Origin: Flavobacterium sp. HBTb2-11-1
GTDB lineage: Bacteria; Bacteroidota; Bacteroidia; Flavobacteriales; Flavobacteriaceae
Assembly: GCF_009826975.1 (NCBI RefSeq)
Contig: NZ_WUMO01000003.1
Location: forward strand, 1 to 64,000
DNA length: 64,000 bases
Reading direction: 5' to 3'
The notes below the pieces were generated by a model. The model did no database searches. It was not told the origin of the DNA and saw only the letters and a list, made by a program, of their open reading frames with translations. Below, piece by piece: positions 15,253 to 64,000 of the stretch (positions are counted from its first letter, which is position 1; each line of letters starts with the position of its first letter). The translations under genes were made by a program, and so were the position numbers.

Positions 15253-15278
15253 TATAACTATTAATGAAAGAAGGAAAA

Positions 15279-15319
15279 AAAACTTAGCATCTTAAAACCT
15301 TAGCAACTTAGTGACTTAA
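15279..15319. repeat. TTAG-type dispersed intergenic repeat
   Basis: A string of CTTAG/ACTTAG words (AACTTAGCATCTTAAAACC, then CTTAGCAACTTAGTGACTTA) at the 3' side of the LuxR gene. The same word pattern recurs in several other gaps (17461-17541, 53454-53477, 61754-61779). The repeat ends 5 bases before the TGA stop of the minus-strand LuxR gene. Confidence 0.65.
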
Positions 15320-15324
15320 AAAAA

Positions 15325-17463: not shown

Positions 17464-17541
17464 GATGCTAAGGTTCTAAGATGCTAAGACTCTAGATTAA
17501 AAAAACTTAGTATATAAGCATTTTAGAACCTTAGTACCTTA
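17461..17541. repeat. TTAG-type palindromic repeat holding both convergent stop codons
   Basis: The left part reads TAAGATGCTAAGGTTCTAAG. The right part contains TTAGAACCTTAGTACCTTAA. CTAAGGTTCTAA and TTAGAACCTTAG pair as a near-perfect inverted repeat. The TAA at 17461-17463 stops the serine hydrolase. The TTA at 17539-17541 is the stop of the minus-strand GntR gene. Confidence 0.8.
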
Positions 17542-18579
17542 AATAGAATTTCTATCAATAAAATTAAAAGGAACTTTTACCTGTGCTTTTTCTTTGTTCA
17601 GAATCATTCTCGCCGCTGTTTCTCCCATAATATTGAAATCGGTAGACATAACGGTAATACCCAATAATTCTTTTAGCGGAGTGTCGTTATAAGAAATGAC
17701 GCCAATCTCTTTTCCCAAAACAAATTCTTCATCACGAATCTGCTTCATTAAATTCACTAGATCAGACTCTTCAATGGTGATAAATAAATCTCCTTTTTTA
17801 AGAATCATATCATCATAAACCTCACTTAGAATTTCAAAATTAATTTCATGTTCCACACAGAATTTTCTAAATCCGTGTAAAATTCGTCTAGGATAAGGGT
17901 AAACAGCTTTATCCGGGTATACTAGAATTAATCGTTTATATTTTGCAATTTTAGAAAGACCTTCTTTTAAGGCATTATAAATATCATTTTCAAAATCCTG
18001 ATAAATCTTAATGACATCGTCACCCGTTCCTAATTTAATGTTATCTAAAATAACCAGTTTTTCTTGCGGAATTTTTTTGATGGCGCTTACCACATCATCA
18101 GTAAAACTTAAATGCCTTAATTCGTCTGTCTTAAAGTGCGTTGTAATGACATAATAATCGTAAGCTCCTTCAAACTTATCTAAGATATTCAAAAATAAAG
18201 TTTCGTCGCAGTGGTAAATTTGAAGATCAACATGAGCGTTGGCTCCTAGAGTATCAATGAATGAACTATAGGTTTTCATTTTATAAGAACTCAATTTGTT
18301 GGTCAAAAACAAAATATTGACTTTAGATTCTAATTTTGTTCGGGTAATATAATAGCCTTTTCCTCTAATCGAAGAAATGATTTTTCTTTCTTTTAAAATG
18401 TTATAAGCTTTCTCAACAGTATCACGAGACATATAAAACTCTTCGCTGAAACTATTTATAGAAGGAATTTTTTGATTGATTTTTAAATTTCCGTTAGCGA
18501 TGTTCTGAAGAATAGAGTCTACAATCTGCTTGTATTTAGGAACTCGAGAATCTTCATCTATTTTAATAAGTTTAATCAT
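17539..18579 (-). CDS. GntR-family regulator with sugar-binding domain, probable rhamnose regulator
   Basis: A start at 18579 gives 346 residues and begins MIKLIKIDEDSRVPKYKQIV. ATGs at 18612 and 18585 would add 11 or 2 residues without a recognisable domain. The N-terminal ~75 residues are a GntR winged helix (QIVDSILQNIANGNLKINQK, FYMSRDTVEKAYNILKERK and GKGYYI). The rest resembles a LacI/periplasmic sugar-binding fold (VNILFLTNKLSSYKMKTYSS; GVISYNDTPLKELLGITVMS). It diverges from the rhamnose operon across a ~385-base gap, so it is probably the repressor of those genes. No operator could be recognised with confidence. Confidence 0.82.
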   Translation of the reverse strand: MIKLIKIDEDSRVPKYKQIVDSILQNIANGNLKINQKIPSINSFSEEFYMSRDTVEKAYNILKERKIISSIRGKGYYITRTKLESKVNILFLTNKLSSYKMKTYSSFIDTLGANAHVDLQIYHCDETLFLNILDKFEGAYDYYVITTHFKTDELRHLSFTDDVVSAIKKIPQEKLVILDNIKLGTGDDVIKIYQDFENDIYNALKEGLSKIAKYKRLILVYPDKAVYPYPRRILHGFRKFCVEHEINFEILSEVYDDMILKKGDLFITIEESDLVNLMKQIRDEEFVLGKEIGVISYNDTPLKELLGITVMSTDFNIMGETAARMILNKEKAQVKVPFNFIDRNSI

Positions 18580-49970: not shown

Positions 49971-50071
49971 AGATTATTTTTTTGGGATAGAAAGTGATAT
50001 TTTTAATGCTCCAAAAATAGAATTGCTTTACAAAAGAGGCAATACGTAAAATTAACCAATTACACTTCTAA

Positions 50072-50842
50072 ATGCCACAGACTTCTTCGATCGAAAACCA
50101 ATTAATGACCACATTTTTAGAACAAAAATTTGAAATTGGAGAATCTAATGATATTGAAATGTACAAACAGTTCGTTAGCAATTATGTCAAAATTGAACAA
50201 TGTGTAGCTGTATTATCCGATTATCAATCCGATAGAAGTTATATCTACGCTGGGAGTTTCGGTTCTGTTTTTGGACTGCCAAATGAAAAAGCTGTAATTG
50301 ACTCTGCTTTTGAAGAATGTATTTTTACCAAAATCAATTCGGAAGATTTGATAGATAGACATATTTTAGAACTTAATTTCTATCAGTTTTTAAAAGGAAT
50401 ACCAAAAGAAGAATATAGTAATTACAGCACGTTTAGCCGTTTAAGAATGAAAGAATCGGTAGAAAAATGTGCTTATATAAATCATCGAACGATTTATCTC
50501 AAAACTTTTAGCAACGGTAGTATTTCCCTTGCATTATGCCTTTATATTCCATCAACCGATTTACAGCCTAGAAAGGGAATCGACGGAAAGATTTTTAATA
50601 TTCAAACAGGTGAGATAATTGAGTCTGAGAAATATAAAAATAAGGCAGAAGCCATTCTTTCTAAAAGAGAAGTGGAAGTCCTAGCCAATGTTGCAAAAGG
50701 ATATAAAAGCGAGCAAATTGCTGCAGAAATGCATATTTCAGTCTATACGGTAAGGCGTCACAGGCAAAACATTATCGAAAAATTGAAAGTTACCAATACT
50801 GCAGAGGCTATACAAACAGCGATAGTCATGGGAATTATTTAG
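50072..50842 (+). CDS. LuxR-type regulator with PAS-like N-terminus, second paralogue
   Basis: The 256-residue protein is the paralogue of the LuxR gene at 15325-16077. Both share AVLSDxxxxxSYIY, a FxQFxKxIP segment, FSRLRM/ISRLRM, and a LALCLY strand. The helix-turn-helix at ~190-254 has LSKREVEVLANVAKGYKSEQ and HISVYTVRRHRQNIIEKLKV. There is no receiver domain. It is followed by a putative copper or envelope-stress lipoprotein gene 67 bases downstream, which may be a target or unrelated. Confidence 0.85.
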   Translation: MPQTSSIENQLMTTFLEQKFEIGESNDIEMYKQFVSNYVKIEQCVAVLSDYQSDRSYIYAGSFGSVFGLPNEKAVIDSAFEECIFTKINSEDLIDRHILELNFYQFLKGIPKEEYSNYSTFSRLRMKESVEKCAYINHRTIYLKTFSNGSISLALCLYIPSTDLQPRKGIDGKIFNIQTGEIIESEKYKNKAEAILSKREVEVLANVAKGYKSEQIAAEMHISVYTVRRHRQNIIEKLKVTNTAEAIQTAIVMGII

Positions 50843-50909
50843 CTGTAAACTTTAATAGTTAAATTTCATGTTACGTAAGAATAATCTTTATATTTGAAGA
50901 AAAAATAAT

Positions 50910-51380
50910 ATGAAGAAAATATTTATTCTTGCGTTTGCAGCTGTTATTGTAACATCTTGCAATTCTAAAAAAAGTAAAGATGAAAATAATGCTGTTTTGA
51001 CAGACACCATCGCAAATAATGAAAAAGAGGATACCGTTGAGAGCATTTCTGTATATGAAGGAACATTGCCATGTGCAGATTGCGAAGGAATAAAAACAAT
51101 TTTAAAAATTGATGCTGTAGCTAATAAATTCCAGTTATCCAGTATATACGAAGGAAAACAGCCTGAAAAAAGCTTTACAGAAAAAGGTAATATCAACACA
51201 GAAAGAGGTTTAGAAAAAGATCCTGATGGAACGATTTTTATTCTAAACTGGGACAAACCAGAAAAAGATCAAACGTATTATGGTTACTACAGCAAAAATC
51301 CTGAAAAACTTTATTTATTAGATAGAAACAAAAAAGTAATCAAATCTAAGTTGGATTATTTTTTAGAATTAAATGAATGA
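50910..51380 (+). CDS. NlpE-like N-terminal domain lipoprotein
   Basis: The 156-residue protein has a lipoprotein signal ending VTSC (Cys17). The NlpE N-terminal-like domain has the CxxC-type motif GTLPCADCEGIKTIL near residues 50-65. It lacks the C-terminal OB domain of E. coli NlpE. Related proteins are linked to copper or envelope stress. A TATATTTG box at 50889-50896 could be a -7 promoter element, but it would leave a very short leader. Confidence 0.8.
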   Translation: MKKIFILAFAAVIVTSCNSKKSKDENNAVLTDTIANNEKEDTVESISVYEGTLPCADCEGIKTILKIDAVANKFQLSSIYEGKQPEKSFTEKGNINTERGLEKDPDGTIFILNWDKPEKDQTYYGYYSKNPEKLYLLDRNKKVIKSKLDYFLELNE

Positions 51381-51527
51381 AATAATTTAAAACCTTTTAA
51401 ATTAAGCTTTTTACGGAAAATATTATAAACTTAACTACTGCGATTGTACTTAAGTTTGTAATATTTTTTTATTTTTAGGCTGATAAAAAGTACCATCAAT
51501 ATTAATTTCTATTGATGAAGATTCACT

Positions 51528-52649
51528 ATGAAGGAAATCAGCGAAATTCTAAAAGCTTACACGCAAGCAAAATCTGAAGGAAAGAAAACGGCTTTAGCGA
51601 CCGTAGTTAAAGTTGAAGGCTCATCATACAGACAACCAGGCGCTAGAATGCTTGTAACAGAAGATGGTCAGCTTACAGGTGCAATAAGTGGCGGATGTTT
51701 GGAAGGAGATGCGTTGCGAAAAGCGCTTCTCTCTATAAATCAAAAGCAAAATAAACTTGTAACTTATAATACGAGTAACGAAGAAGATGCCGAAGTTGGT
51801 TTACAGCTTGGTTGCAACGGAATCGTTCATATTCTTTTTGAATATATAAATGAAGACGCTGGAAACAACCCGATTCAGCTTTTAAAACAATTAGAATTAG
51901 AAAGGAAAGAAGCTGTGATTGTAACCGTTTTTTCTTTAAAAAGAAATGCTTTTCAAACTGGAACCACTTTGTTTTTTAGAAAAGACAATCCGCTTATAAA
52001 TTATAACAATGATTTAAACCTAATTTCTGATGTAAAAGAAGTGCTTGAAAGCAAAACATCGGTAGTAAAAAAACTTCAGGAAGAAAACGACAACGAAGCC
52101 TTAATTGAATATGTAAAACCATCTATTTCACTCATAATTGCTGGTGCAGGAAATGATATTCAGCCACTGGTGAAAATGGCTTCTGTTTTGGGATGGAAAA
52201 TTACTATTGCAGAAGGTCGCGCAACACACGCCACTTCAAAACGTTTTCCAGAAGCCAGCCAAATTTCGGTTGTAAAACCCGAACATTTTCTTGATCAAGT
52301 TATTATCGACGATCAGACTTATTTTCTTCTAATGACACACAATTACAAATACGATTTGACGGTTTTAAAATCATTATTGCAAACCAATTATCATTATGTT
52401 GGCATCTTAGGTCCAAAATCAAAATTCAATCGAATGCTAGATGATCTTTTGATTGAAGGAATTACCGTAAACGAAGAACATTTAAGCCGAATTCACAGTC
52501 CCGTAGGTTTGGATATCGGAGCTGAAACCTCAGAAGAAATTGCCCTTTCGATTATTGCTGAAATTAAAGCTGTTGCCTCTGAATGTGCGGGAACATCGTT
52601 GAAATATAAATCGGGCAAAATTCATAATGAAATTCATTATGGAAAATAA
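51528..52649 (+). CDS. XdhC/PaoD-family molybdenum-cofactor chaperone
   Basis: The 373-residue protein has the XdhC/CoxI N-terminal domain (VKVEGSSYRQPGARMLV, GAISGGCLEGD) and a C-terminal Rossmann-like domain (SLIIAGAGNDIQPLVKMASV; MTHNYKYDLTVLK; VGILGPKSKF; SPVGLDIGAETSEEIALSI). The family binds and protects the molybdenum cofactor and helps insert it into xanthine- or aldehyde-oxidising enzymes; E. coli PaoD serves PaoABC. It overlaps the MocA-type gene, and the molybdenum hydroxylase genes lie 2.4 kb downstream. Confidence 0.9.
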   Translation: MKEISEILKAYTQAKSEGKKTALATVVKVEGSSYRQPGARMLVTEDGQLTGAISGGCLEGDALRKALLSINQKQNKLVTYNTSNEEDAEVGLQLGCNGIVHILFEYINEDAGNNPIQLLKQLELERKEAVIVTVFSLKRNAFQTGTTLFFRKDNPLINYNNDLNLISDVKEVLESKTSVVKKLQEENDNEALIEYVKPSISLIIAGAGNDIQPLVKMASVLGWKITIAEGRATHATSKRFPEASQISVVKPEHFLDQVIIDDQTYFLLMTHNYKYDLTVLKSLLQTNYHYVGILGPKSKFNRMLDDLLIEGITVNEEHLSRIHSPVGLDIGAETSEEIALSIIAEIKAVASECAGTSLKYKSGKIHNEIHYGK

Positions 52650-53250
52650 ACATCATCAGAAAATTGGCATTATCATTCTTGCAGCTGGAAATTCGTCTAG
52701 ATTAGGCAGACCCAAACAGTTGTTAAAACATAAAGAATCAACTCTTCTCAAAAATACGATTTCAGAAGCTTTAAAGATTCAAAATTCTTTTTTAATAGTG
52801 GTGACAGGTGCAAATCACGATGTAATAAAAAAAGAGCTGAATTTGCCTGAAGTAAAACTTTCATTCAATTCTGAATGGGAGAGCGGAATGTCTTCTTCAA
52901 TTGTCAAAGGAATTACAGAATTAATGCTTTTAAACCCCGATTGCGAACAGTGCATTCTATCAGTCTGCGACCAGCCTTTTGTAACAAGTTCTGTCTTCGA
53001 AAATTTAATCAACCAATCTAAGAGAACTGGAAAGGGAATTGCAGCATCAGCTTATGCGGAAACTTTAGGAACACCAGCTTTATTTCACCAAAAATACTTT
53101 GAGGAACTTCTAAAATTGAAAGGAAAGGAAGGAGCCAAAAAACTCATTGAAAAATATGCTGATGATGTAGTTTCAGTTCCTTTTGAAAAAGGGAATATTG
53201 ATATTGATACTGAAGAGGATTATTCTCAGTTGATTTCTTTTGACAAGTGA
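52639..53250 (+). CDS. mocA: Molybdenum cofactor cytidylyltransferase (MocA family)
   Basis: A start at 52639 gives 203 residues beginning MENKHHQKIGIIILAAGNSS. An ATG at 52627 adds four residues (MKFI) and cannot be excluded. The GT-A nucleotidyltransferase motif is LAAGNSSRLGRPKQLLKHKES. It also has SVCDQPFVTSSV, GIAASAYAETLGTPALF and DIDTEEDY. MocA joins CTP to molybdopterin, giving the dinucleotide (MCD) form of the cofactor. Some relatives (NboR or MobA) use GTP, so the nucleotide is inferred. The 11-base overlap with the XdhC gene indicates coupling. That fits a PaoABC-type enzyme, which uses MCD. Confidence 0.82.
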   Translation: MENKHHQKIGIIILAAGNSSRLGRPKQLLKHKESTLLKNTISEALKIQNSFLIVVTGANHDVIKKELNLPEVKLSFNSEWESGMSSSIVKGITELMLLNPDCEQCILSVCDQPFVTSSVFENLINQSKRTGKGIAASAYAETLGTPALFHQKYFEELLKLKGKEGAKKLIEKYADDVVSVPFEKGNIDIDTEEDYSQLISFDK

Positions 53251-53306
53251 CAAAGGTTTAAAGTGACAGAGGAGCAAAGTTTTTTATGCAGATTATGTAG
53301 ATAAAG

Positions 53307-53410
53307 TTTGTCATCCTGACGAAGGAAGGATCACACGAGAGAATCGACAAAGATTGAGACATTCTATAATGGAGCTTCTAGTGTGATCCTTCCTTCGTCA
53401 GGATGACAAA
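53307..53410. repeat. GTCATCCTGACGAAGG palindromic repeat, perfect 30-bp arms
   Basis: Left arm 53307-53336 and right arm 53381-53410 are perfect 30-base reverse complements, with TCATCCTGACGAAGGAAGGA in the left arm, enclosing a 44-base loop. The same left-arm sequence recurs at 61647-61671. This lies in the gap between mocA and the cysteine desulfurase gene. Confidence 0.92.
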
Positions 53411-53453
53411 AAAAACTTCCCGCCTCAGCGACTTGGCGAGAGATAAAAAAAAA

Positions 53454-53477
53454 CTTAGTGTCTTAGCGCCTTAGCGG
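53454..53477. repeat. TTAG-type repeat overlapping the 3' end of the cysteine desulfurase
   Basis: CTTAGTGTCTTAGCGCCTTA plus GCGG is a typical word string of the TTAG repeat family, seen elsewhere only in gaps. Here it is translated on the minus strand as the final AAKALRH and supplies the stop codon. Confidence 0.72.
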
Positions 53478-54606
53478 CAAACTCCATAGCTAAACTCAAA
53501 ACACGCTCAACAGCAATATCAATTTCTTCTTCTGTAGTAAATCTCCCCAAACTAAAACGAATCGAACTCAAAGCTTCTTCATCAGATAATCCCATTGCTA
53601 TTAAAACATGCGAAGGCTTAGAAGTAACAGCAGAACAAGATGCTCCATTTGAAACGGAAATATTTCCTAAAGCCAAAATCAGCTGTTCTGAATTTACGCC
53701 AGGAAAACAAATATTTGAAGTATTATAAATTCGGTTTTCTGTATTTCCGTTAACAAAAGAACCTTCAAATTGTAATAAACCTTTTTCAAGTTTATTTCTT
53801 AATGCTTCAATTCGTTTCTGATCTTCTTGCTGTTCTTTCAAAGCAATTTCTGCAGCTTTCCCTAAACCAATAATGCCAGAAACATTTAGTGTTCCGCTTC
53901 GTAATTTTCTCTGTTGTCCGCCTCCAAGAGTCTGAGGTTTCAATTTTACTTTGGCTTTCGCCGAAATATACAAAGCGCCGACTCCTTTTGGGCCATAAAA
54001 TTTATGAGCTGACAATGCTAAAAGATCGATTCCCAAAGTTTTTACATCAATCGGAACTTTGCCGACAGCTTGAGTTGCATCACACATAAAAAGTACATTT
54101 CTGGCTTTCAGTGTTTTAGAAATCGCACTAATGTTTTGTATGACGCCAGTTTCATTATTAGAAAACATTCCAATGAAAACCAATGTTTTATCTGTAATTA
54201 TTTCTTCTAAAAGTTGAATGTCTAAAAGGCCATCAGCAGCGATTGGAAGATAAGTAACTTCAAAACCAATGCTTTCCATAAAGTGGCAAGTTTCAAGAAC
54301 GGCTTTATGTTCGGTCTGAATGGTTATAATATGCTTTTTGCCTTGATCAGCGAGTCCTTTTATAGCTAGATTGATGCTTTCTGTAGCACCAGAGGTAAAA
54401 ACGATTTCATCAGCATCGGCATTTATCAAATCTGCCGTTTGCCAAGCAGCATTTTCAACAGCTTCTTTTACTGTTAAACCAGCCAAATGTGTGCTGGTCG
54501 AATTGGCATAAAAATCAGTAAAATAGGGAAGCATCGCATCCAAAACGCGTTCATCAACACGCGTTGTGGCATTATTATCCAAGTAAATGATTTTTTGCTG
54601 TGACAT
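53455..54606 (-). CDS. Cysteine desulfurase, NifS/IscS family
   Basis: The 383-residue PLP enzyme has IYLDNNATTRVDERVLDAM at the start, TSGATESINLAI, the PLP-binding Lys in ALSAHKFYGPKG, RSGTLNV, and the active Cys in NGASCSAVTSKPSH. It takes sulfur from cysteine and passes it on. It sits between the cofactor genes and paoABC on the opposite strand. A dedicated role in sulfurating the molybdenum cofactor, by XdhC-linked transfer, is plausible but unproven; a general Fe-S role is also possible. The last seven residues derive from an intergenic-type repeat. Confidence 0.92.
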   Translation of the reverse strand: MSQQKIIYLDNNATTRVDERVLDAMLPYFTDFYANSTSTHLAGLTVKEAVENAAWQTADLINADADEIVFTSGATESINLAIKGLADQGKKHIITIQTEHKAVLETCHFMESIGFEVTYLPIAADGLLDIQLLEEIITDKTLVFIGMFSNNETGVIQNISAISKTLKARNVLFMCDATQAVGKVPIDVKTLGIDLLALSAHKFYGPKGVGALYISAKAKVKLKPQTLGGGQQRKLRSGTLNVSGIIGLGKAAEIALKEQQEDQKRIEALRNKLEKGLLQFEGSFVNGNTENRIYNTSNICFPGVNSEQLILALGNISVSNGASCSAVTSKPSHVLIAMGLSDEEALSSIRFSLGRFTTEEEIDIAVERVLSLAMEFAAKALRH

Positions 54607-54990
54607 AATTTGAGGTTGATTCAGTAAAAATACAATTTCAGAATTAATCTATATGGAAAATTAACTGTAAAGCTCCCAAAGTTTTAATGGGTATAATTTT
54701 TTGTTTCTCGCAGATTTTGCAGATCTAAACAGATTTTTATTTATTTCTATATAAAGAATCTTCGCAAATCTTTCCATCGTATTCAAAATCTGCATTATCT
54801 GCCAAATCTTCTAGAGAAAAATAAGTTTGCGAACTTTGCGAAAACATTGCGCCTTTGCGGTAAAAAAATAAAGAAATTGTAATTATTCTAAATAAGGGTA
54901 ATGTTTGAATTTCATAACTTTTTGTGATTTAAGTTGATTAAATTTGTTAGAATGACAAAAGTGAATTTGCTAATTTAACAAATAGATTGC
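54607..54990. other. Gap between divergent genes, with repeats
   Basis: About 384 bases. The central part is the GCAGAT-type palindrome (54704-54819) and an adjoining CTTTGCG word string (about 54824-54863). Near 54939-54946 the box TAAATTTG matches a -7 element for the paoA-type gene, but no well-spaced TTG was found. Confidence 0.55.
54704..54819. repeat. GCAGAT-type palindromic repeat, second copy
   Basis: Left TTTCTCGCAGATTTTGCAGA pairs imperfectly with the right GCCAAATCTTCTAGAGAAA. The words AGATCTAAACAGATTT and AAATCTGC match those in the 22372-22562 element. Arms are less regular than in that copy. Confidence 0.72.
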
Positions 54991-55629
54991 ATGGCTTCTA
55001 AAAAATCAAATCAAAGTAAAGTAACGTCGGAAGATGCTAATTCGCGTCGTGACTTTATAAAGAAATCAGGACTTTTTACCGCTCTTGCTCTGACGCCTCC
55101 TTCATTGGTAATGGCTTCAGAAAAGAAATGGGATGAAAAAATAGCAGAATATCTAGAAACAGTACCGCTTTCTATTGAAGTAAATGGCACAAAACACAAC
55201 TTGAACATAGAGCCGAGGACTACGCTACTTGATTTACTTCGCGAACAATTACAACTTACGGGAACTAAAAAAGGTTGCGATCATGGGCAATGTGGCGCAT
55301 GTACTGTTCATGTAAACGGAACCCGAATTTTGTCGTGTCTTTCTCTGGCTACGATGCAGCAAAACGCGCAAGTGACTACTATCGAAGGTCTTGCAAAAGG
55401 CAAAAAACTACATCCGATGCAGGAAGCTTTTATCAAACACGATGGTTTTCAGTGCGGGTATTGCACTCCAGGACAAATCATGTCGGGAATTGCCTGTATC
55501 AAAGAAGGCCATGCCAGCAGCAGAGAAGAAATCAGCGAATATATGAGCGGGAACATTTGCAGATGTGGCGCTTACCACAATATTGTCGATGCTATAACGG
55601 AAGTGAAGGAAGGAGGAAAGGAGATATGA
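54991..55629 (+). CDS. Molybdenum hydroxylase 2Fe-2S subunit, PaoA/YagT type, with Tat signal
   Basis: The 212-residue protein has a twin-arginine signal (SRRDFIKKSG near residue 18-27), so the enzyme is exported folded by Tat. The 2Fe-2S domain has CDHGQCGACTVHVNG, and the second cluster is in QCGYCTPGQIMS and GNICRCGAYHNI. This is the small subunit of a periplasmic aldehyde oxidoreductase of the PaoABC group, related to xanthine dehydrogenase. The stop TGA overlaps the ATG of the FAD subunit gene (ATGA). Confidence 0.9.
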   Translation: MASKKSNQSKVTSEDANSRRDFIKKSGLFTALALTPPSLVMASEKKWDEKIAEYLETVPLSIEVNGTKHNLNIEPRTTLLDLLREQLQLTGTKKGCDHGQCGACTVHVNGTRILSCLSLATMQQNAQVTTIEGLAKGKKLHPMQEAFIKHDGFQCGYCTPGQIMSGIACIKEGHASSREEISEYMSGNICRCGAYHNIVDAITEVKEGGKEI

Positions 55630-56606
55630 AAAATTTTCAGATAATAAAAGCATTGTCGTCTTCATCGGCAGTTTCAGGAAAAGCAAAAGATAATTCCTCG
55701 ATGTTTATTGCTGGAGGAACCAATCTTGTCGATTTAATGAAGAAGAATATTGTAGCTCCAGATAAACTAGTTGACATCAACGGATTGGATTTAAAGAAAA
55801 TCGAATTTTTAAAAGGAAAAGTTTCGATTGGAGCATTGGCAAAAAACAGTCAAGTTGCTGAAGATTCATCCATAAAAGAAAAATATCCTTTACTCTCATT
55901 GGCTTTAGCAGCTGGAGCTTCTCAGCAAATTCGTCATATGGCAACAGTTGGAGGGAATATACTGCAAAAAACGCGTTGTTCATACTATTACAATACTGAT
56001 ATGCCATGTAACAAAAGAACACCAAAAAGCGGATGCGGTGCCATTGGGGGTTTTAACCGAATGCATGCTGTTTTTGGTGCCTCAGATAGTTGTATTGCTG
56101 TGCATCCAAGCGATATGTGTGTAGCTTTGGCTGCACTTGATGCAACAGTTTTGGTGGAAGGTCCAAAAGGAAAACGAGATATTAATTTTACCGATTTTCA
56201 CAGACTTCCAGGAAATACACCAGAAAAAGACAATACACTGGACAGCAGAGAATTAATTACTTCTATTGAAATTCCAGATAATAATTTTACTAAAAATGTA
56301 CATTATCTAAAAGTTCGAGACAGAACAAGTTATGCTTTTGCATTGGTTTCTGTTGCAGTAGCTTTAGACATAAAAAATAATACCATAAATGATGTTAGAC
56401 TAGCTATGGGCGGTGTGGCACATAAACCTTGGAGATTAACTGAAACAGAAAAATTCCTGAAAGGAAAAACAATATCTGAAGATCTATTTAAACAAGCTGG
56501 CCATTTGTCTATGAAAGGAGCAAAAGGATACGGCGACAATAATTTTAAACTAACGCTTGGAGAGAATGCAGTAGCAGAAGCACTTACAATAGCAGCATCA
56601 AAATAA
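55626..56606 (+). CDS. Molybdenum hydroxylase FAD subunit, PaoB/YagS type
   Basis: A start at 55626 gives 326 residues (MKNFQIIKALSSSSAVSGKA). The much longer frame that begins at 55275 runs through the previous gene in another frame and is rejected. FAD-binding residues are in FIAGGTNLVDLMKKN and a MATVGGNILQKTRC segment. The Cys cluster TRCSYYYNTDMPCNK and SGCGAI matches the extra 4Fe-4S site known in PaoB, which ordinary xanthine dehydrogenase FAD subunits lack. No own signal peptide is visible, so it would be carried out with the Tat-bearing small subunit. The ATGA overlap with paoA supports coupling. Confidence 0.9.
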   Translation: MKNFQIIKALSSSSAVSGKAKDNSSMFIAGGTNLVDLMKKNIVAPDKLVDINGLDLKKIEFLKGKVSIGALAKNSQVAEDSSIKEKYPLLSLALAAGASQQIRHMATVGGNILQKTRCSYYYNTDMPCNKRTPKSGCGAIGGFNRMHAVFGASDSCIAVHPSDMCVALAALDATVLVEGPKGKRDINFTDFHRLPGNTPEKDNTLDSRELITSIEIPDNNFTKNVHYLKVRDRTSYAFALVSVAVALDIKNNTINDVRLAMGGVAHKPWRLTETEKFLKGKTISEDLFKQAGHLSMKGAKGYGDNNFKLTLGENAVAEALTIAASK

Positions 56607-56613
56607 TTAAATT

Positions 56614-58818
56614 ATGAGTAAGACAAGTAATATTAATAGAGTTGACGGATTTGCTAAAGTAACGGGTTCTGCAACTTATTCGTCTGAATATAAAACATCT
56701 GGTGTGGTTTATGCCTGCCTTGTGGGAAGTACCATTGCAAAAGGAAGAATCAAAACCATTGATACTAAAAAAGCAGAATGGGCGCCGGGAGTTTTGGCGG
56801 TTATTACACATTTGAATGTAGATAAACCTGCAGGTTATCAGAAAGCCAAAGACAAGCATAATTTTGGTCAGCCGCTGCAGATTTTTAAAGATGATTCGAT
56901 TTTGTATTACGATCAGCCGATTGCTTTGGTGATTGCAGATACTTTTGAACGTATGCAATATGCGGCAAGTCTAATTAAAGCTGAGTATTTTAAAGAAGAG
57001 CATTCGACAGAACTTAAAAAAGCAGCAGAAAAAGAAAAGAAAGTTGAAACCGATAAAGGAAATGATTACCATCGCGGTGAACATGATGGCTATAAAAATG
57101 CTGAGGTAATTCTAGAAGCTGAATATACAATTCCAACCGAGGTGCATAACCCGATGGAATTGGCCAATATCATTGCCAAATGGGACGGAAACAAACCAAT
57201 TTTATATACAAAAAGTCAAGGTGTAGAGGGAACTCGCAGAAGTGTAGCAGGTGTTTTTGATGTTCCCGCCGAAAATGTCGAGGTTCATGCTGAATATCTT
57301 GGAGGCGCATTCGGAATGGGATTGCACACTTGGCCGTACGAAATCGCAGCTTTAATTGGCGCGAAAAAATTAAATCGTCCTGTAAAATTAGTTTTGCATC
57401 GTGAACAGATGTTTACCAATGTTGGTTTCAGACCTTACACCATTCAGAAAATGGGTCTTGGTGCTACAAAAGAAGGGAAACTGACAGGCTTAACGCACGA
57501 AGCTGTAGCTATGACTTCGAGTTATGAGGATTTCATGGAAGGAACCGTAAACATGTCGCGATTTATTTATGATTGTCCGAACGTTTCAACACGCTATAGA
57601 ATTGTGCCTTTGGACACTTGTACGCCGATCTGGATGCGTGGGCCAGGTGAAGCAACAGGTTCTTTTGCCTTAGAATGTGCCATGGACGAATTGGCTTATA
57701 AATTAAACTTAGATCCGATTGAATTCCGTAAACTGAATTATGCCGAAAAAGATCAGGAGCAAAATAAACCGTGGAGCAGTAAATACCTTTTGGAATGCTA
57801 CGAAGCGGGAATGGAACGTATTGGCTGGAACAACCGTAAAAATGAACCGAGTTCTGTTAAAGAAGGAAATTGGCTGGTAGGTTATGGAATGGGAACGGGA
57901 ACGTTTGGCTGTTATCGAAGCCCAACTTCGGTAAAAGCAAAATTCTTAGCCAATGGCGATTTGGTTTTGCAATGCAGCGTAAACGATATGGGACCTGGAA
58001 CAGCAACCATGATGACAGCAATTGGAGCTGAAGTAATAGGTTTGCCAGCTGAAAATGTAATCATCGAAATGGGCAAAAGCGGACTGCCAAAAGGCCCAAC
58101 GCAAGGTGGTTCGGCAACGACTTCATCTGTTGGTTCTGCAGTTCATGATGCTTGTAATTTATTGTTGAATAAAATAATTGAATTGGGAAGTAAAAATCCT
58201 GCTTTGAAAGGAATCGCTCTCACTGATTTAACTTTTGAAAATGGGGCAGTTTCTTCTAAAAAAGACAAATCGAAGTCGGTTACTTTAGCAGCACTTTTAA
58301 GCAGTAATAAATTAGAAGATTTTGAAGTAGAAAATCTTTCTAAAGCTGCTGAAGAAGCGAAGAAATATTCAATTTACTCATTTTCTGTTCATTTTGTAAA
58401 AGTATTAGTGAATCCGAATTTGGGTAAAATACGATTGGCTCATGTGGTTTCCTGTGCAGATATTGGAACAGTGATCAATCAGAAAACATCTGCGGGACAA
58501 ATGTTTGGCGGTGCAGTAGGAGGAATCGGAATGGGATTGATGGAAGCATTAGAAATCGATCATCGTTTCGGTCGTCCGATTAATAATAATTTCGCAGATT
58601 ATCATGTTCCTGTAAATGCTGATATAGAAAAGCAGGAAGTTTTCTTCGTAAATAAAAAAGACCCGATTAGTAATCCAATGGGAACAAAAGGTCTCGGAGA
58701 AACAGCGTTGGTTGGAATGGCGCCCGCAATTGCCAATGCCGTTTTTAATGCAACGGGAAAACGTGTTCGAGATTTACCTATTACATTGGATAAGATTTTA
58801 GAAACTGCTAAGGTTTAA
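56614..58818 (+). CDS. Molybdenum hydroxylase catalytic subunit, PaoC/YagR type
   Basis: The 734-residue molybdopterin-binding subunit begins 7 bases after the FAD gene. Family motifs include GFAKVTGSATYSSEY, YLGGAFGMGLHTWPYE (cofactor loop), MRGPGEATGSFALE, QGGSATTSSVGSAV and the catalytic Glu in GTKGLGETALVG. It lacks its own signal peptide. With the two small subunits it forms a heterotrimer that oxidises aldehydes at the periplasm in the E. coli PaoABC group. The true substrate is not known here. Confidence 0.92.
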   Translation: MSKTSNINRVDGFAKVTGSATYSSEYKTSGVVYACLVGSTIAKGRIKTIDTKKAEWAPGVLAVITHLNVDKPAGYQKAKDKHNFGQPLQIFKDDSILYYDQPIALVIADTFERMQYAASLIKAEYFKEEHSTELKKAAEKEKKVETDKGNDYHRGEHDGYKNAEVILEAEYTIPTEVHNPMELANIIAKWDGNKPILYTKSQGVEGTRRSVAGVFDVPAENVEVHAEYLGGAFGMGLHTWPYEIAALIGAKKLNRPVKLVLHREQMFTNVGFRPYTIQKMGLGATKEGKLTGLTHEAVAMTSSYEDFMEGTVNMSRFIYDCPNVSTRYRIVPLDTCTPIWMRGPGEATGSFALECAMDELAYKLNLDPIEFRKLNYAEKDQEQNKPWSSKYLLECYEAGMERIGWNNRKNEPSSVKEGNWLVGYGMGTGTFGCYRSPTSVKAKFLANGDLVLQCSVNDMGPGTATMMTAIGAEVIGLPAENVIIEMGKSGLPKGPTQGGSATTSSVGSAVHDACNLLLNKIIELGSKNPALKGIALTDLTFENGAVSSKKDKSKSVTLAALLSSNKLEDFEVENLSKAAEEAKKYSIYSFSVHFVKVLVNPNLGKIRLAHVVSCADIGTVINQKTSAGQMFGGAVGGIGMGLMEALEIDHRFGRPINNNFADYHVPVNADIEKQEVFFVNKKDPISNPMGTKGLGETALVGMAPAIANAVFNATGKRVRDLPITLDKILETAKV

Positions 58819-58837
58819 ACAAAAACAATTACTAGAG

Positions 58838-58875
58838 TCCCTTTGAGAGTACAATGTTAAAGGGATTATTTTTTG
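58838..58875 (+). terminator. Probable terminator after the molybdenum hydroxylase operon
   Basis: TCCCTTT (58838-58844) pairs with AAAGGGA (58859-58865) with a 14-base loop, followed by TTATTTTTTG. Shorter stem and larger loop than the other terminators here. Confidence 0.6.
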
Positions 58876-58886
58876 TTTTGAAGAAA

Positions 58887-59030
58887 ATCTCGCAAAGTCG
58901 CAGAGACGCAAAATTTTTTAAACCATATAAGTGATATAAGTTCAATTAAGAGAAAACTTAAAATTCCTTATATGACTTATATGGTTGTTTTTTTTGCATT
59001 AAACTTTGTGTCTCTGCGACTCTGCGAGAT
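58887..59030. repeat. CTCTGCGA-type palindromic intergenic repeat
   Basis: Left ATCTCGCAAAGTCGCAGAGA and right TCTCTGCGACTCTGCGAGAT are near-perfect complements (one mismatch). Inner words AACCATATAAGTGATATAAG and CTTATATGACTTATATGGTT pair as well. A smaller CGCAAAG/CTTTGCG hairpin follows at 59040-59072. The element fills the gap before the convergent DUF2911 gene. Confidence 0.9.
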
Positions 59031-59097
59031 AAAAAAAATCGCAAAGCTTAAAAAAAACTTTGCGACTTTGTGCCTTCGTGGCATATAGGATTAAAAC

Positions 59098-59661
59098 TTA
59101 TTTAATTGTAATTGGCAACTCAACTGTTGTTTTATCCCAACCGATAACAAGATTTGCTACGTTACCTTGAGTTGTAAAAGCAATCGATAAAGCTTCGATA
59201 ACATCAGAAACTGGTTTAACAGGAACTGAAACTCTTACAACATCTTTGCTTTCGTCGTAAGCATAACCGCCCCATAAATCTAGTTCTTTATTGATAATGA
59301 TAGTCCATTTGTCCTTTTCTGGAATAGCAAATAAGCTGTAGTATCCTGCAGGAACTTTTTTACCACCGATTGTTACATCTTTGTAGAATTTGATTTCTGT
59401 GTTTTCATTAGCGCCAACTCTCCAAACTTCTCCAAACTTAACCACATCACCAAAAATAGTTCTTCCTTTTACAGAAGGTCTTGCATAAAGAACTTTGATA
59501 ACTGGGTTTGGATTATCTGTTTTTTTGAATTTAACCGCTTTGTTTGGGAAATACGAAATATCAACCGGACTTGCATCAAGCGGAGCAAATTTTACTATGT
59601 CCTGAGCCTGAACTGTAAAAGCAGCAAACAAAGTAACTGCTAGTAAATAGAATTTTTTCAT
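59098..59661 (-). CDS. DUF2911 family secreted protein
   Basis: The 187-residue protein has a signal peptide (ending VQAQ). The DUF2911 features are YARPSVKGRTIFG, GEVWRVGANENTEIKF and KVPAGYYSLFAIP, as in short secreted proteins of Bacteroidota. The body is beta-rich. Function is unknown. It converges with the molybdenum hydroxylase operon and shares no evident link with it. Confidence 0.88.
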   Translation of the reverse strand: MKKFYLLAVTLFAAFTVQAQDIVKFAPLDASPVDISYFPNKAVKFKKTDNPNPVIKVLYARPSVKGRTIFGDVVKFGEVWRVGANENTEIKFYKDVTIGGKKVPAGYYSLFAIPEKDKWTIIINKELDLWGGYAYDESKDVVRVSVPVKPVSDVIEALSIAFTTQGNVANLVIGWDKTTVELPITIK

Positions 59662-59762
59662 GGTTTACAATTTTTAGATTAACTACAACAAAGTAAATTA
59701 ATAATGAAGAAAAATCATATAATTTGAAGCCTGTTTTTTGTTAATGAATTGGTAATGACGAA

Positions 59763-61568
59763 TTAATTCTGATATTCTTTTTTCTTTTTAGCATACCAAT
59801 CCTGCATAATGTAAAACGCTTTTTTCTTTTCACCGTCATTTGAAATTAGACCTTTACGATTGTAACCGTCCTGAATTCCAGGAAGCAATCTTTTTGGAGA
59901 TCTAAAATCGACTAAAATCCAAGGGCTTGTTCCGCTTAGATGTGGAATCTTTTCGATCATTTTTAAATTCTGAATGTATAAATATTCTTGATATTCTTCT
60001 GTCCAGCGTTCGTTTTTCTCTCCGTGGAAACCAGCTTTGGCATCGCCACCAAATTCAGACACAACAATCGGTTTATTGTATTTAGATTTCCATGTTATTT
60101 TCTCAGCATCTTCCAGATTTCCGCCGTACCAGCCCAAATATTGATTGAAAGCCACAACATCTAAAACTTCGCCAATAGGGTCATCAATAGTTTCTTTTTT
60201 TGTTAATAAAGCAGCGCTGATTAATCTTGTATTGTCTAATGATCTAGTGTGTGATGCTAAATTTTTAATGAACGTATTTCTAGCGTCTGAAATTGGTGTT
60301 TCATTTGCCATTGACCAAATAACAATACTAGCTCTGTTTTTATCTCTTGTGATAGCGGCAGTTAATTGATCTTCGGCATTTTTATAGGTGTTTTCATTTT
60401 TAAATTCTACTGTCCAGTAAACTGGGATTTCTTCCCAAACCATTAAACCCAATTTATCAGCTTCTCTAACCATGTTTTCGTTGTGTGGATAATGTGCCAG
60501 ACGAACATAATTACAGCCTAATTCTTTCGCCCAGTTTAATAAACGTAAAGCATCTTGTACAGAATTAGCACGTCCGCCTTTTCCATTTTCTTCATGAATC
60601 GAAATTCCGCGTAAAAAGATCTCTTTTCCGTTTAGCAGAATTTTATCTTCTTTGGTTTCAATAGTTCTAAAACCAATCTTATCGTTTAATTTTTTTCCGT
60701 TGAAATCAAAAGTAACATTATACAATTTCGGATTTTCTGGCGACCAATACGAGATTTTTTTAGTTGGAATTTCGAAGTTTAAAATTCCGTTGCTAGCCGC
60801 TTTTCCTTTGAAATTGATTTTTAATTCAGGAATAGAAATCGAAATATTATTTTTCGAAGCATCTAAATTATTGATTTTAATAAAACCTGAAATAATATTT
60901 GCATTGCCTTTTTTCAGCTGAATAGTATAATCTTCCACAAATGATGATTCTTCTTCAATTAAAGTCACATCGCGCGTGATTCCGCCATAATTCCACCAAT
61001 CGGTGTTTACGGTTGGAACATCTTCTTTATGACGTGTATTATCAACTTTAATTACTAAATAATTTCCAGTAGGTTTTACAATCGAAGTTACTTCGTAATT
61101 AAACGGAGTGAAACCGCCTTCATGTGTGCCAAGTTTTTTTCCGTTTAAATAAACATCGGCTTTGTAATTGATTGCTCCCAAATATAAGAACAGACGTTTA
61201 TTAGCTGTTAAATTGTAATCAAAAGACTTTTTGAACCAAACATTTCCTTCATAATATTTCAGTTCCGCAACCTGCGAATTCCAATCGCCTGGAATATTGA
61301 TTGTAGGGGATTTATCAAAGTCATATTCTACCAATTCCTGTTTGTTTTGAGCATGATAATTAGAAAAAAAAGCTCCTTTTGCCGGTTTTTCACTTTTGTC
61401 GTATTGATCCAAGTGAAAGCTATAAAAACCAGTTTGATAAGGATCGATAATATAATTCCAAACTCCGTTTAAAGAAGTGGTGTTTCGGTTTGATACGTTA
61501 GAAATTAAACCTTGTGATTGTCCAATTGCGAACGATGTCAGGAATAATAGTGTTAGAATTTTTTTCAT
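59763..61568 (-). CDS. GH2-family enzyme, beta-glucuronidase-like
   Basis: The 601-residue protein has a signal peptide (ending FAIG before QSQ). The layout is a jelly-roll (ADVYLNGKKLGTHEGGF), an Ig-like domain, and a TIM barrel. The acid/base Glu is in VIWSMANETP and the nucleophile is in IVVSEFGGDAKAG. The segment QDGYNRKGLIS has the NxK pattern that in beta-glucuronidases binds the uronate carboxylate. The length matches glucuronidase-type GH2 proteins. Activity on glucuronic or a related uronic acid is inferred from this motif. The neighbouring minus-strand GH2 carries the same pattern. Confidence 0.85.
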   Translation of the reverse strand: MKKILTLLFLTSFAIGQSQGLISNVSNRNTTSLNGVWNYIIDPYQTGFYSFHLDQYDKSEKPAKGAFFSNYHAQNKQELVEYDFDKSPTINIPGDWNSQVAELKYYEGNVWFKKSFDYNLTANKRLFLYLGAINYKADVYLNGKKLGTHEGGFTPFNYEVTSIVKPTGNYLVIKVDNTRHKEDVPTVNTDWWNYGGITRDVTLIEEESSFVEDYTIQLKKGNANIISGFIKINNLDASKNNISISIPELKINFKGKAASNGILNFEIPTKKISYWSPENPKLYNVTFDFNGKKLNDKIGFRTIETKEDKILLNGKEIFLRGISIHEENGKGGRANSVQDALRLLNWAKELGCNYVRLAHYPHNENMVREADKLGLMVWEEIPVYWTVEFKNENTYKNAEDQLTAAITRDKNRASIVIWSMANETPISDARNTFIKNLASHTRSLDNTRLISAALLTKKETIDDPIGEVLDVVAFNQYLGWYGGNLEDAEKITWKSKYNKPIVVSEFGGDAKAGFHGEKNERWTEEYQEYLYIQNLKMIEKIPHLSGTSPWILVDFRSPKRLLPGIQDGYNRKGLISNDGEKKKAFYIMQDWYAKKKKEYQN

Positions 61569-61602
61569 TTTTTAATCTTTGTTTGTATTCTATTTATGTT
61601 TT

Positions 61603-61779
61603 GCCACGAAGGCACTAAGTCACGAAGTTTTTTTTCTCTCGTTTTTTTGTCATCCTGACGAAGGAAGGATCGCAATAGAAACTCCGCAATCTTTATCGCC
61701 AATCTTTGTAGAATTCCGAGTGTGATCGTCAGGATGACAAGCTAGACTAAAAAACTTTGCGTCTTAGCGTCTTTGTGGC
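61603..61779. repeat. Nested repeat: TTAG-type outer arms around a GTCATCCTGACGAAGG element
   Basis: Outer arms GCCACGAAGGCACTAAGTCA (61603-61622, continuing to 61627) and CTTTGCGTCTTAGCGTCTTT (61755-61774, continuing to 61779) pair imperfectly over 25 bases. The inner element 61647-61740 has a left arm TTGTCATCCTGACGAAGGAA shared with 53307-53410. Its right arm GATCGTCAGGATGACAA lacks the CTTCCTT segment present in the other copy. The nest fills the whole gap between the two GH2 genes. Confidence 0.88.
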
Positions 61780-61788
61780 TAGAAAATC

Positions 61789-64000
61789 TTATTCGATAGG
61801 AATCTTCAAATATTCTCCTTTAAAGCTCTGGTTCAATGCCGTCATTTCAATCGGTTTGCCAGAACTATCAGGCATTACTTCAATCGAAGCTTTTCCGTTT
61901 GCCATTCTGATGGATTCGCTTCCAGTTGGTGTTCCTTGATTTTTTAGCGTTTTTCCACCTTTTAAACATTGAAAATAAACACTAGCTTCATAATCCAGGC
62001 AGCGCAAATTATTGTTGTCAATTGCAATTGCAGTTACCAGATAATTACCATTTTTTAGTTTTTCTGATGATAATTGCAACGAAACCGCCGTGTCATTTTT
62101 ATTGAAACGATAATTCACTTTCAACGTATCCGAAACTGTTTTGCCTTCTTTTGTTTTTCCGACGGCAACTAAAATATTTTCCCCTTTCGTAAAATTGACA
62201 TCCCAAGTTAAACCATTTGCAGGATAAAGAGCAAGATTTCGCTGTTTTTCTCCTAGTGATTTTCCGTTATGGAAAAAAGTCACTTTCTCACAATTACTGA
62301 AAACGCTTATCGTTCTCAGTGTGCCTTCAGGACCTTGGCGTTCTGTCCAAGTATGCGATTCGATGTAAGCGAAAGGTGCTGTTGCCCAATAGCTTTTAAA
62401 AACATAATAAGCATCTTTCGGAATTCCGTTTCGGTCTGTCAATCCTTTTTGGTTCATGTACGGAATATCGTCTTCAGGACGCAAAGGCGTTGCAAAATCC
62501 TTAAATGCCCATTGTATGTTACCCACGAACGTTGGGTCATTCTCGGATATATGCAAATGCCAGTCAAATAAATCAACGATATAATTTTCGCTCCAATCCC
62601 CAATTTGTGCAATGTTAGCGACTTTAGTCTGTACAATGGCTTCTTCCCATCCTTCGGCTTTTATTACATTTTCACCTGTAATTGGGTTTTCGCTATGACG
62701 TCCAACATGACTATCTCCGCCATATTCGGCATGAATAAAATGTTTGTATTCTTTCTTGTAAACATCAATCGCTTTTTGGTAGCTTTTATAGCTTCCAGAA
62801 TACCATCCAGACCAGATAGAAGGGGAGAATACATCTACAATATGCGAACCTTCGTAATATTTTCTGATAGCCGTTTTTCTTGTCGGATCAAGTTTGTGAG
62901 CAATATCATTTAATTCATTTAAAAACGTATTGGTTTTTTCTGCGTTATCACCATCAGGAAAATCAGGAAGCCAGTTTATTTCGTTTCCTAAAGACCAGAT
63001 AATAATACTCGGATGATTATAATTTTGATTGATGATTTCAGCCAGCATATTTTTGGTATTCGTTTTCCAAACGTCATTTCCAATTCCGCCGCGGCACCAA
63101 GGCAATTCATCCCAAACCAAAAGTCCAAGTTCATCGCAGGCTTTATAAACTTCTGGATCTTGCGGATAATGTGCTAAACGGACAAAATTAGCGCCCATTT
63201 CTTTAATCGATTTCATATCAGCCCAATGCTGTTCGTTGCTCATCGCAGCGCCAACACCAGCTTGTTCTTCATGGCGATGCGTTCCTCGAATTAATAATCT
63301 TTTTCCATTCAAATAAAAAGGGCCATGATCTTTAAATTCAAACCATCTGAAGCCAACTTTTTCTGAAATACTGTCTTTAATCTGATTTTTTTCTGATAAA
63401 ACAGCAGAAAGTCTGTATAGATTTGGTTTTTCAGTATCCCAAAGTTCGGGGTTTTTGATGTTTTCAAAAGTGATTGTTGAAGTTCTATCTGTAACCAAAA
63501 CGGTTTTGCTCGCTACTTTTTTCCCTTTCGGATTTTTAAGCGTTACAGTTAAAGATAAGTCCTTTGAATTGTCAGGATTTACAAAAGAAGAAACAACTTG
63601 TAGGGAAGCTTTTTTTGAAGAAACTTCAGGAGTTGTAATTTTTATATTTTCGATATGATTTTTGTATTTCGAAACTAGCCAGACGTCGCGCGTGATTCCT
63701 CCATAAATGAAGAAATCGCTTTTTTGAGACGGAATAATTTCGATATCATAACTATTATCCACACGAGCAAAAATATCGTTGTTTCCTTCTTTTATGAAAT
63801 TCGTAATATCAATAGAAAAACCAATATAACCGCCAATATGCGATCCCGCTTCTTTTCCGTTGACATATACTTTTGTGGTTACATTCGAGCCTTCAAAGTA
63901 TAAAGAGTAAACTCTGTTTTTATCGATTTGCGGAATATTTAATTTTTTTTGATACCAGCTTGCATCGCGTCGGTAACCTGGATTTAAGTCGGTTGCATCT
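61789..64000 (-). CDS. GH2-family enzyme with NxK motif, 5' end outside window
   Basis: The coding frame is open from 61789 to the window end. A Met at 63762 is internal. Translation beyond it gives a normal GH2 N-terminal region (LNPGYRRDASWYQKKLNIP; VYVNGKEAGSHIGGYIGFS), so the true start lies beyond 64000. Visible are the jelly-roll, the Ig-like domain, the barrel with acid/base Glu in IIWSLGNEINW, and the nucleophile in FIHAEYGGDS. PYMNQKGLTDRNGIPKDAY carries the NxK uronate-type pattern. The C-terminal ~150 residues are Ig-like. It is likely the second uronidase or beta-galactosidase-type enzyme of a small cluster continuing outside. Confidence 0.85.
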   Translation of the reverse strand, partial: DATDLNPGYRRDASWYQKKLNIPQIDKNRVYSLYFEGSNVTTKVYVNGKEAGSHIGGYIGFSIDITNFIKEGNNDIFARVDNSYDIEIIPSQKSDFFIYGGITRDVWLVSKYKNHIENIKITTPEVSSKKASLQVVSSFVNPDNSKDLSLTVTLKNPKGKKVASKTVLVTDRTSTITFENIKNPELWDTEKPNLYRLSAVLSEKNQIKDSISEKVGFRWFEFKDHGPFYLNGKRLLIRGTHRHEEQAGVGAAMSNEQHWADMKSIKEMGANFVRLAHYPQDPEVYKACDELGLLVWDELPWCRGGIGNDVWKTNTKNMLAEIINQNYNHPSIIIWSLGNEINWLPDFPDGDNAEKTNTFLNELNDIAHKLDPTRKTAIRKYYEGSHIVDVFSPSIWSGWYSGSYKSYQKAIDVYKKEYKHFIHAEYGGDSHVGRHSENPITGENVIKAEGWEEAIVQTKVANIAQIGDWSENYIVDLFDWHLHISENDPTFVGNIQWAFKDFATPLRPEDDIPYMNQKGLTDRNGIPKDAYYVFKSYWATAPFAYIESHTWTERQGPEGTLRTISVFSNCEKVTFFHNGKSLGEKQRNLALYPANGLTWDVNFTKGENILVAVGKTKEGKTVSDTLKVNYRFNKNDTAVSLQLSSEKLKNGNYLVTAIAIDNNNLRCLDYEASVYFQCLKGGKTLKNQGTPTGSESIRMANGKASIEVMPDSSGKPIEMTALNQSFKGEYLKIPIE

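Follow-up and report, generated by a model that had tools for sequence, protein, structure and literature searches.

In sequence comparisons of orthologous sites with colinear flanks, a palindromic element of Flavobacterium lies inverted between species, a finding that is new here, and at least three inversions, at two of the four sites compared, appear to have taken place. The element comes from the window, which is the whole stretch of 64,000 nucleotides of DNA analysed, and from its features it is well supported as a REP dimer that belongs to the CGTC/TGTC type and has a distinctive core in its arms. The account considered probable is that of a TGTC-tagged REP dimer, in a host close to F. 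anhuiense, whose arms would be kept alike and whose spacer would be flipped by template switching, and which would spread in trans.

Structure of the dimer and its arm family

The first palindrome, at 53307-53410, consists of perfect inverted arms of 30 bp (53307-53336 and 53381-53410) around a loop of 44 nt, exactly as an earlier note on this DNA had described it; in the repeat listing of the window its arms were also scored at 97% over 34 nt. Two arms stand head to head around a 52-nt spacer and form a dimer (Table 1), located between two genes of which the one at 53455..54606 is read as encoding a product of the NifS/cysteine-desulfurase type. Each arm is a small TGTC-tagged hairpin of the form GTCAT-NNN-GA-X-GNA-X'-GA-N'N'N'-ATC, in which a GTC tag is followed by an AT-led stem of 5 bp, a GA/GA step, one closing pair and a GNA triloop. 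In single strands, tandem GA steps and GNA triloops can form stable structures.

Table 1. Parts of the two dimers of the window and their surroundings
Feature	Position	Strand	Remarks
Complete head-to-head REP dimer	53307..53410		98 bp from GTCAT to ATGAC, plus stem-extending flanking TTT/AAA
Left REP unit, first dimer	53309..53332	+	TGTC tag; stem ATCCT/AGGAT; GA/GA; closing pair C-G; GAA triloop
Spacer of first dimer, 52 nt	53333..53384	+	core GACAAAGATTG at 53346-53356, orientation 'F'
Right REP unit, first dimer	53385..53408	-	inverted copy, identical to left unit
Flanking gene, MobA-like NTP transferase	52627..53250	+	converges on first dimer
Flanking gene, class-V aminotransferase family	53455..54606	-	converges on first dimer
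Second dimer, decayed	61646..61740		spacer in orientation 'R'
Left REP unit, second dimer	61648..61671	+	intact
Spacer of second dimer, 52 nt	61672..61723	-	core on minus strand
Right REP unit, second dimer	61724..61738	-	8-nt deletion; complete in ortholog L269
Outer palindrome, left half	61602..61635	+	8-bp-phased repeats; encloses second dimer
Outer palindrome, right half	61749..61779	+	counterpart of 61602..61635 around second dimer

The first dimer has a folding energy of -38.4 kcal/mol as single-stranded DNA, where shuffled sequences average -10.1 (z -11.4; 0 of 200 shuffles equal), and of -61.9 as RNA, with z of -11.6 and -11.3 on the two strands; a single arm folds weakly in standard nearest-neighbour energy models (-2.2 kcal/mol as DNA, equalled by 40 of 200 shuffles). 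The palindrome had been taken for a two-copy element, which proved wrong. Arms with at most 3 mismatches occur 27 times in the element's own 5.26-Mb genome, and a general arm pattern that leaves the stem and closing positions free (GTCAT NNN GA N G N A N GA NNN ATC) finds 91 units of several stem types there, 103 in genome G015 and 87 in G006, the reversed control giving 0 in every one of these counts. That the palindrome is not a product of chance, as had been claimed, is borne out by the z of -11.4 and by the 91 units against 0 for the reversed pattern; a chance origin has nothing in its favour and is refuted. Nor did the REP-like reading fail on the genome-wide count that had been named as its check, which might have shown two copies only or copies scattered in genes: copies are many, and 0 of 98 sites lies inside an ORF of a simple caller.

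The pairing of the arms is kept while their bases change. Across all 87 units of G006, the stem triplets are complementary in 84 (shuffled mean 36.6, maximum 50 in 2,000) and the closing pairs also in 84 (shuffled mean 43.7, maximum 59 in 2,000), with stem types TTC/GAA (50), CCT/AGG (22), TCC/GGA (9), TCT/AGA (2), CCC/GGG (1) and mismatched (3). Among 69 distinct dimers, from loci collected mostly via CCT arms so that the share of stem types is biased, triplets are complementary in 136 of 138 arms and the closing pair is G-C or C-G in 138 of 138. When 33 dimers of 98 bp were aligned, the arm hairpins were paired in 396 of 396 cells and their covariation score was 0.468 against 0.194 shuffled (0/500) and at most 0.143 when slid, the cells counting sequences and not events; both sides had changed in 8 of 12 pairs, which 41 of 500 shuffles reach. 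The full-length hairpin of the same 33 dimers is paired in 96% of 1,023 cells and scores 0.172 against 0.091 shuffled (0/500), above the shuffles because homodimers must be, so that some selection on the long hairpin is possible. Pairs across the spacer barely covary: both sides have changed in 1 of 12, a count reached by 298 of 500 shuffles, and cells are paired in 85.6% against 84.7% shuffled, a level reached by only 3 of 500. Where the two arms of a dimer differ, the long palindrome is disrupted and the hairpin of each arm is retained. These patterns are read as a constraint that acts on each arm, and the perfect 30-bp palindrome would be secondary. The earlier view of a REP-like palindrome under structural selection is supported by the dispersed copies and by the stem covariation within each arm.

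Inversion at orthologous sites

Site 1 is the gap between the MobA-like and the aminotransferase gene; its comparison took in 40 genomes with Flavobacterium or Flavobacteriaceae in their names (L146-L185), taken from 80 loci of which the other 40, at most 49% identical, were left out. A parsed dimer is present in 12 of 41 sequences including the window; L149 and L160 have dimers with small changes, and that of L151 is truncated. The spacer of the L151 dimer seems interrupted by another palindrome family, a palindrome nested in a palindrome. Orientation F is found in the window, L146, L148, L153, L171 and L176, and orientation R in L150, L152, L154, L156, L173 and L178. Of these, L148 is from F. 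nitrogenifigens, L150 from F. tyrosinilyticum, L152 from F. ginsenosidimutans and L153 from F. sharifuzzamanii. The spacers of the window and L156 are 96% identical after inversion and 60% as they lie, those of L148 and L150/L152/L154 96% and 54%, and those of L152 and L153 94% and 55%. Among 72 spacers, the best match to the window spacer is that of L156 (0.96, inverted), the next standing at 0.81.

The inverted stretches detected by BLAST measure 104-109 bp and are 96-98% identical after inversion. Between the window and L156, 104 bp are inverted at 98% within 1,030 bp that are colinear at 78%, and L152/L153, L148/L150 and L153/L154 each give one inverted 104-bp match at 96-98%, with the colinear flanks in pieces. 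Of the 24 loci taken for site 3 from 25 matching genomes, six have a dimer; between L286 and L287 a stretch of 109 bp is inverted at 98% within 1,419 bp colinear at 86%, and L285 and L290 have the same orientation. All four occupied loci of site 4 (24 loci from 69 matching genomes) lie in one orientation; other GTC-led repeats (GTCACCCTGAGCGAAGTCGAA and relatives) stand near the own-genome dimer position in L313, L314, L316, L321 and L322. Site 2 (20 loci) holds dimers in L269, L270 and L275 besides the decayed one of the window, which agrees with L269 in orientation and in 45 of 52 spacer bases.

On a flanking-gene tree of site 1, which was built on two proteins and has many weak branches, three changes are needed, one for spacer A and two for spacer B. 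Since the F and R alleles at this site differ in the right flank, alleles may have moved between species, and a cautious count is therefore two. All-against-all comparison gave 44 flank-matched pairs, 21 in the same orientation, 14 inverted and 9 unclear; 11 of the inverted pairs come from site 1, and the other three include L059 and L122 of G042, where the similarity of the flanks may be no more than that of repeats. In 16 species pairs picked for a spacer identity of at least 0.88, spacers are 89-100% identical, on average 0.955 in the 8 inverted and 0.965 in the 8 same-orientation pairs, with 85% and 89% for the upstream genes, 0.84 and 0.86 for the left 50 bp, and 0.64 and 0.80 for the right 50 bp. 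The element thus appears more conserved than its flanks, for which selection on the element, exchange between species or a recent origin are possible reasons.

Homodimers, arm exchange and turnover

A conserved arm with a free loop had been claimed, and the arm is indeed conserved, but the spacer keeps its length (59 of 69 dimers measure 98-100 bp end to end) and a common core. Of the 69 dimers, 48 have two identical arms, where 2,000 shuffles gave 17.5 on average and never more than 28. Near-identical spacers are also found with different arms, namely in L024/L116 (0.90, both arms changed), L122/L129 (0.89, one arm changed) and L112/L116 (0.87, one arm changed), which would fit exchange of one arm followed by homogenisation. 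The spacers of L269 and L290, two sites of G091, are 0.92 alike, a probable sign of within-genome copying. In L059:5001-11129 of G042, six dimers lie in about 6 kb, and the near-identical flanks of four of them suggest local amplification.

Depending on the species, site 1 holds a CCT dimer, a TTTC dimer, a mixed dimer (L176), a remnant (L147, L162, L165), palindromes of another family, or neither. Two of the three remnants (L162, L165) keep just the outer feet of the palindrome, as might be expected from hairpin deletion starting at the tip, and F. anhuiense CGMCC 1.6859 (L147) has kept a right-arm remnant. The other palindromes at this site (L155, L158, L159, L161, L166, L167, L170, L174, L177), of the types CTCCAGTTTTAACTGGAG / CCAGCTTTAGCTGG and GGCTTTAGCC, are unrelated. 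At site 2, G006 carries a different palindrome in a flank that is 97% identical. Mobility, also claimed before, is likely from the dispersal, the turnover and the 0.92-alike spacers of L269 and L290, but no clean empty site was found, the dimer-less orthologous sites that were read holding remnants, other repeats or diverged gaps, and no target-site duplication could be read at the orthologous sites examined.

The second dimer

The earlier note had paired the first palindrome with a second element of the same left arm, and a left arm of 26 nt, TTTGTCATCCTGACGAAGGAAGGATC, is common to both dimers. The right arm of the second (CTTCCTTC) is 8 nt shorter, rightly seen in that note as a loss, because the orthologous site L269 of G091 has the full arm. 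Its loop, reported to differ, does so in sequence but is a 52-nt spacer of the same kind in the opposite orientation, the two spacers being 64% identical after inversion and 57% as they lie. A second repeat family, with 8-bp-phased units of the type CTTTGCGA CTTTGTGC CTTCGTGG, builds outer palindromes and was seen at 61602-61635, 61749-61779, 59050-59083, 53448-53478, 15276-15320 and 17461-17543; what the outer palindrome at 61602-61779 encloses varies in other species (L268, L274, L279). The window also contains five tandem copies of a 246-bp repeat at 1423-2655.

The search for a linked transposase

A linked RAYT-type transposase, suggested in the earlier note, was looked for and not found beside the arms. 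The own genome has five Y1_Tnp profile matches, four of them over the family cut-off, and no arm was found in the 1.5-kb flanks of these five (loci of 3.2-3.3 kb). Three of the four own Y1_Tnp loci scanned carry strong palindromes of their own, L028, L029 and L031 (TTCTACCGATGAGATGTTCC, CCCGTGGTTGAAACCACGGG and TCCTGCAAGGTTTTCAAAACCTTGTAGGT). In 34 Y1 loci (5 own, 29 best-of-genome), all eight GTCAT hairpins found are without the GA/GNA core. Hairpins of the type GTCATCCCTACGGGAT occur at L071:1951 and L088:2001-2530, with five copies in L088, and their start resembles the arm; these Y1_Tnp-linked hairpins were rejected as arm kin, having a TAC loop, other copies without the GTC tag and no GA/GNA core.

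Among 61 genomes of the genus, the own one included, exact arms occur in 17 and Y1_Tnp in 41, and in three of the 17 arm-bearing genomes (G004, G030, G054, one with 14 arms) no Y1_Tnp was found at E 0.001. In ten genomes with listed exact CCT-type arms, none of the 41 Y1 matches has a listed arm on its contig closer than 13.9 kb. The seven ORFs around the six-dimer cluster of G042 (L059) encode sugar, regulatory and redox proteins, and Pfam shows no transposase family among them; where the first four dimers lie, the DNA has no ORF of its own longer than 52 aa. Linkage to a RAYT in cis was rejected, as no Y1_Tnp was found beside arms in the own genome or in the relatives scanned. Carriage by phages or plasmids was searched with the first dimer, which had no match in 50,697 phage and 72,556 plasmid records at E 1e-5; in IMG/VR, one contig (L333, 29.8 kb) has one exact CGAAG-type arm at 5963-5985, and the GGAAC type is in none.

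Gene context and RNA signals

With genes taken from a simple ORF caller (ORFs of at least 300 nt), the 98 deduplicated sites in 100 loci comprise 58 unidirectional, 28 convergent and 10 divergent gaps and 2 undetermined cases. Element-free gaps of the same loci, not deduplicated, number 14 unidirectional, 6 convergent and 14 divergent. The divergent class is depleted among gaps with an element (10 of 96), relative both to the element-free ones (14 of 34, p 2e-4) and to the gaps of L146-L185 (57 of 145, p 4e-7), the gap background being small and the gaps not independent. An intrinsic terminator was rejected for the first dimer, with 0 terminator-like sites in 53200-53520 and an A-run, not a T-run, after the hairpin on the plus strand, and so was a known RNA family, with no Rfam match above gathering score in 50000-64000.

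Relation to known systems

CGTC REPs (Di Nocera et al. 2013, PMC3733652) include TGTC variants with AT-led stems and head-to-head dimers, both homo- and heterodimers, and in the accessible part of that paper have no transposase; Bacteroidetes are listed, and G. forsetii is among the CGTC-positive species. The present element is like them in the TGTC tag variant, AT at stem positions 1-2, the predominance of head-to-head dimers, sub-families with alternative complementary stem residues, homo- and heterodimers, uni- or convergent gaps, the nesting of some dimers in other palindromes and, as far as that part of the paper goes, the want of a transposase association (PMC3733652). The superfamily has CGTC, TGTC or CCTC as its tag, and all 27 arms recovered at up to 3 mismatches start with TGTC, the 33 aligned dimers being no test of the tag, selected as they were with GTCAT in the pattern. 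AT...AT stands at stem positions 1-2 in 27 of 27 arms, with exceptions elsewhere in GTCCT (L062) and GTCTT (L114). Head-to-head dimers predominate with 48 paired against 28 single sites in 74 loci, and several of the single sites pair with an arm of another stem type. The missing association with a transposase applies to Y1_Tnp; for other classes it refers to seven ORFs round one cluster, with no match. The arm itself differs from the published stems of 8-9 bp and loops of 4-5 nt in having five standard pairs, a GA/GA step, a closing pair and a GNA triloop (PMC3733652), so that 8 stem positions are reached only if the GA step is counted, and the loop has 3 nt. The stem is followed by a tail that is CAC in most cases and at times CTC or another sequence; the short unpaired tail of the CGTC superfamily is mostly CCA (PMC3733652). 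The accessible text of that paper contains neither 'flavobact' nor 'GTCAT', and no inverted spacers are described in it.

REPINs (Bertels and Rainey 2011, PMC3116915) are likewise inverted REP doublets with a spacer, dispersed in the genome, with singlets as decay products and compensatory changes, but they stand beside cognate RAYTs, of which none was found here; the accessible text holds no word starting with 'inversion'. The tag here is TGTC and not of the GTAG type, and no RAYT flanked by the same REPs was found. In yeast genes, template switching between inverted repeats makes the arms alike and turns the spacer round (Abraham and Hazkani-Covo 2021, PMC8604942). The two outcomes are there joint products of a recurring and reversible process, as they may be here, but in coding DNA and with spacers of a few bases, whereas the present case concerns spacers of 52 nt in bacterial REP dimers; template switching and RNA hairpins are also the topic of PMC8794818. 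The palindromes flanking the own Y1_Tnp genes fit the description of the atypical flanking structures of TnpA_Y1 subclass 2.6 of Bacteroidetes (PMC6006769) and are unrelated to the element studied. RepRanger (PMC12306157) gives REP counts for two Flavobacterium species, including 4,118 REPs in F. ginsenosidimutans, but these are generic hairpins of at least 10 nt, and in its accessible text no TGTC family, dimers or inversion are named for Flavobacterium. A literature search, with most subscription journals outside its scope, gave, among the matches listed, none whose title or opening of the abstract dealt with inverted spacers in REP dimers, and for the printed arm sequence it gave matches to the shortest term only, none of them on REPs by title.

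Template switching and alternative explanations

Spacer inversion and the excess of dimers with identical arms point to template switching that would keep the long palindrome perfect. In the proposed mechanism, replication template switching between the arms would copy one arm onto the other, producing homodimers, and would sometimes invert the spacer, so that neither a linked transposase nor selection for the long hairpin would be needed to regenerate the long palindrome. As the mechanism of upkeep, template switching is plausible; it is seen only as the products that such switching would give, and identical arms could also come from the spread of ready-made homodimers. Dispersal would most likely come from a putative single-strand DNA activity of the HUH type, acting in trans on the arm hairpins. 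On this account no host function is needed to explain the observations.

A host RNA element at 3' ends, whose transcribed hairpin would protect or process neighbouring mRNA ends, is unlikely. It would agree with the avoidance of divergent gaps, with a hairpin that is similarly stable on both strands and occurs in either orientation, and with a conservation above that of the neighbours in several species pairs; however, the shortage in divergent gaps would also follow if insertions into promoters are purged, occupancy of one site differs widely between species, spacer pairs barely covary, and in 53200-53520 no terminator-like site was found, the plus-strand hairpin being followed by an A-run instead of a T-run. 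Somewhat more doubtful still is a classical REPIN moved by a RAYT (TnpA_REP) of the own genome. The inverted REP pair with spacer and hairpin has such an architecture, five Y1_Tnp matches (four above cut-off) are at hand and action in trans is conceivable, but none of the five is flanked by arms, the nearest listed arm being 13.9 kb away; the eight GTCAT hairpins of the 34 Y1 loci are without the GA/GNA core, own Y1 loci have other palindromes, and at E 0.001 a Y1_Tnp is missing from 3 of the 17 genomes with arms.

The flips themselves might be separate re-insertions, alleles exchanged between species or assembly errors, an explanation that carries little probability. Elements more alike than their flanks, draft assemblies with short inverted arms, and the differing right flanks of F and R alleles at site 1 speak for it, but the inverted stretch coincides with the element while the flanks stay colinear, the window spacer is matched at 0.96 by L156 only (next 0.81 of 72), the same pattern recurs at a second site, and the arms of 23-30 bp are shorter than common sequencing reads. 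Programmed invertible DNA switches are known from phase variation in Bacteroidota, and the inversion of a 98-bp segment between species at two sites would suit one whose arms are the recombination sites. Such a switch is nevertheless highly improbable, given 91 units in one genome, mostly outside divergent gaps, and arms that vary and covary as hairpins, which a recombination site does not need.

Implications

CGTC-type REPs were reported in 2013 without a dedicated transposase, and their persistence was left open in the accessible part of that report (PMC3733652). Inverted orthologs, mostly identical arms and arm swaps one at a time offer an explanation, open to test, for the survival and diversification of such palindromes. 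More tentatively, and with the odds somewhat against it, transposase-free REP dimers in general could be self-renewing palindromes, which would renew themselves by arm copying and in-place flips through repeated template switching at replication and, as species diverge, change type arm by arm via heterodimers, with no need of a cognate transposase or of selection acting on the long hairpin. With its GA step and its GNA triloop, which persist while the closing pair is swapped, the arm core can serve as an exact pattern for searches and as a defined ligand in binding screens, and in-place flipping of the middle part may help explain the persistence of such palindromes.
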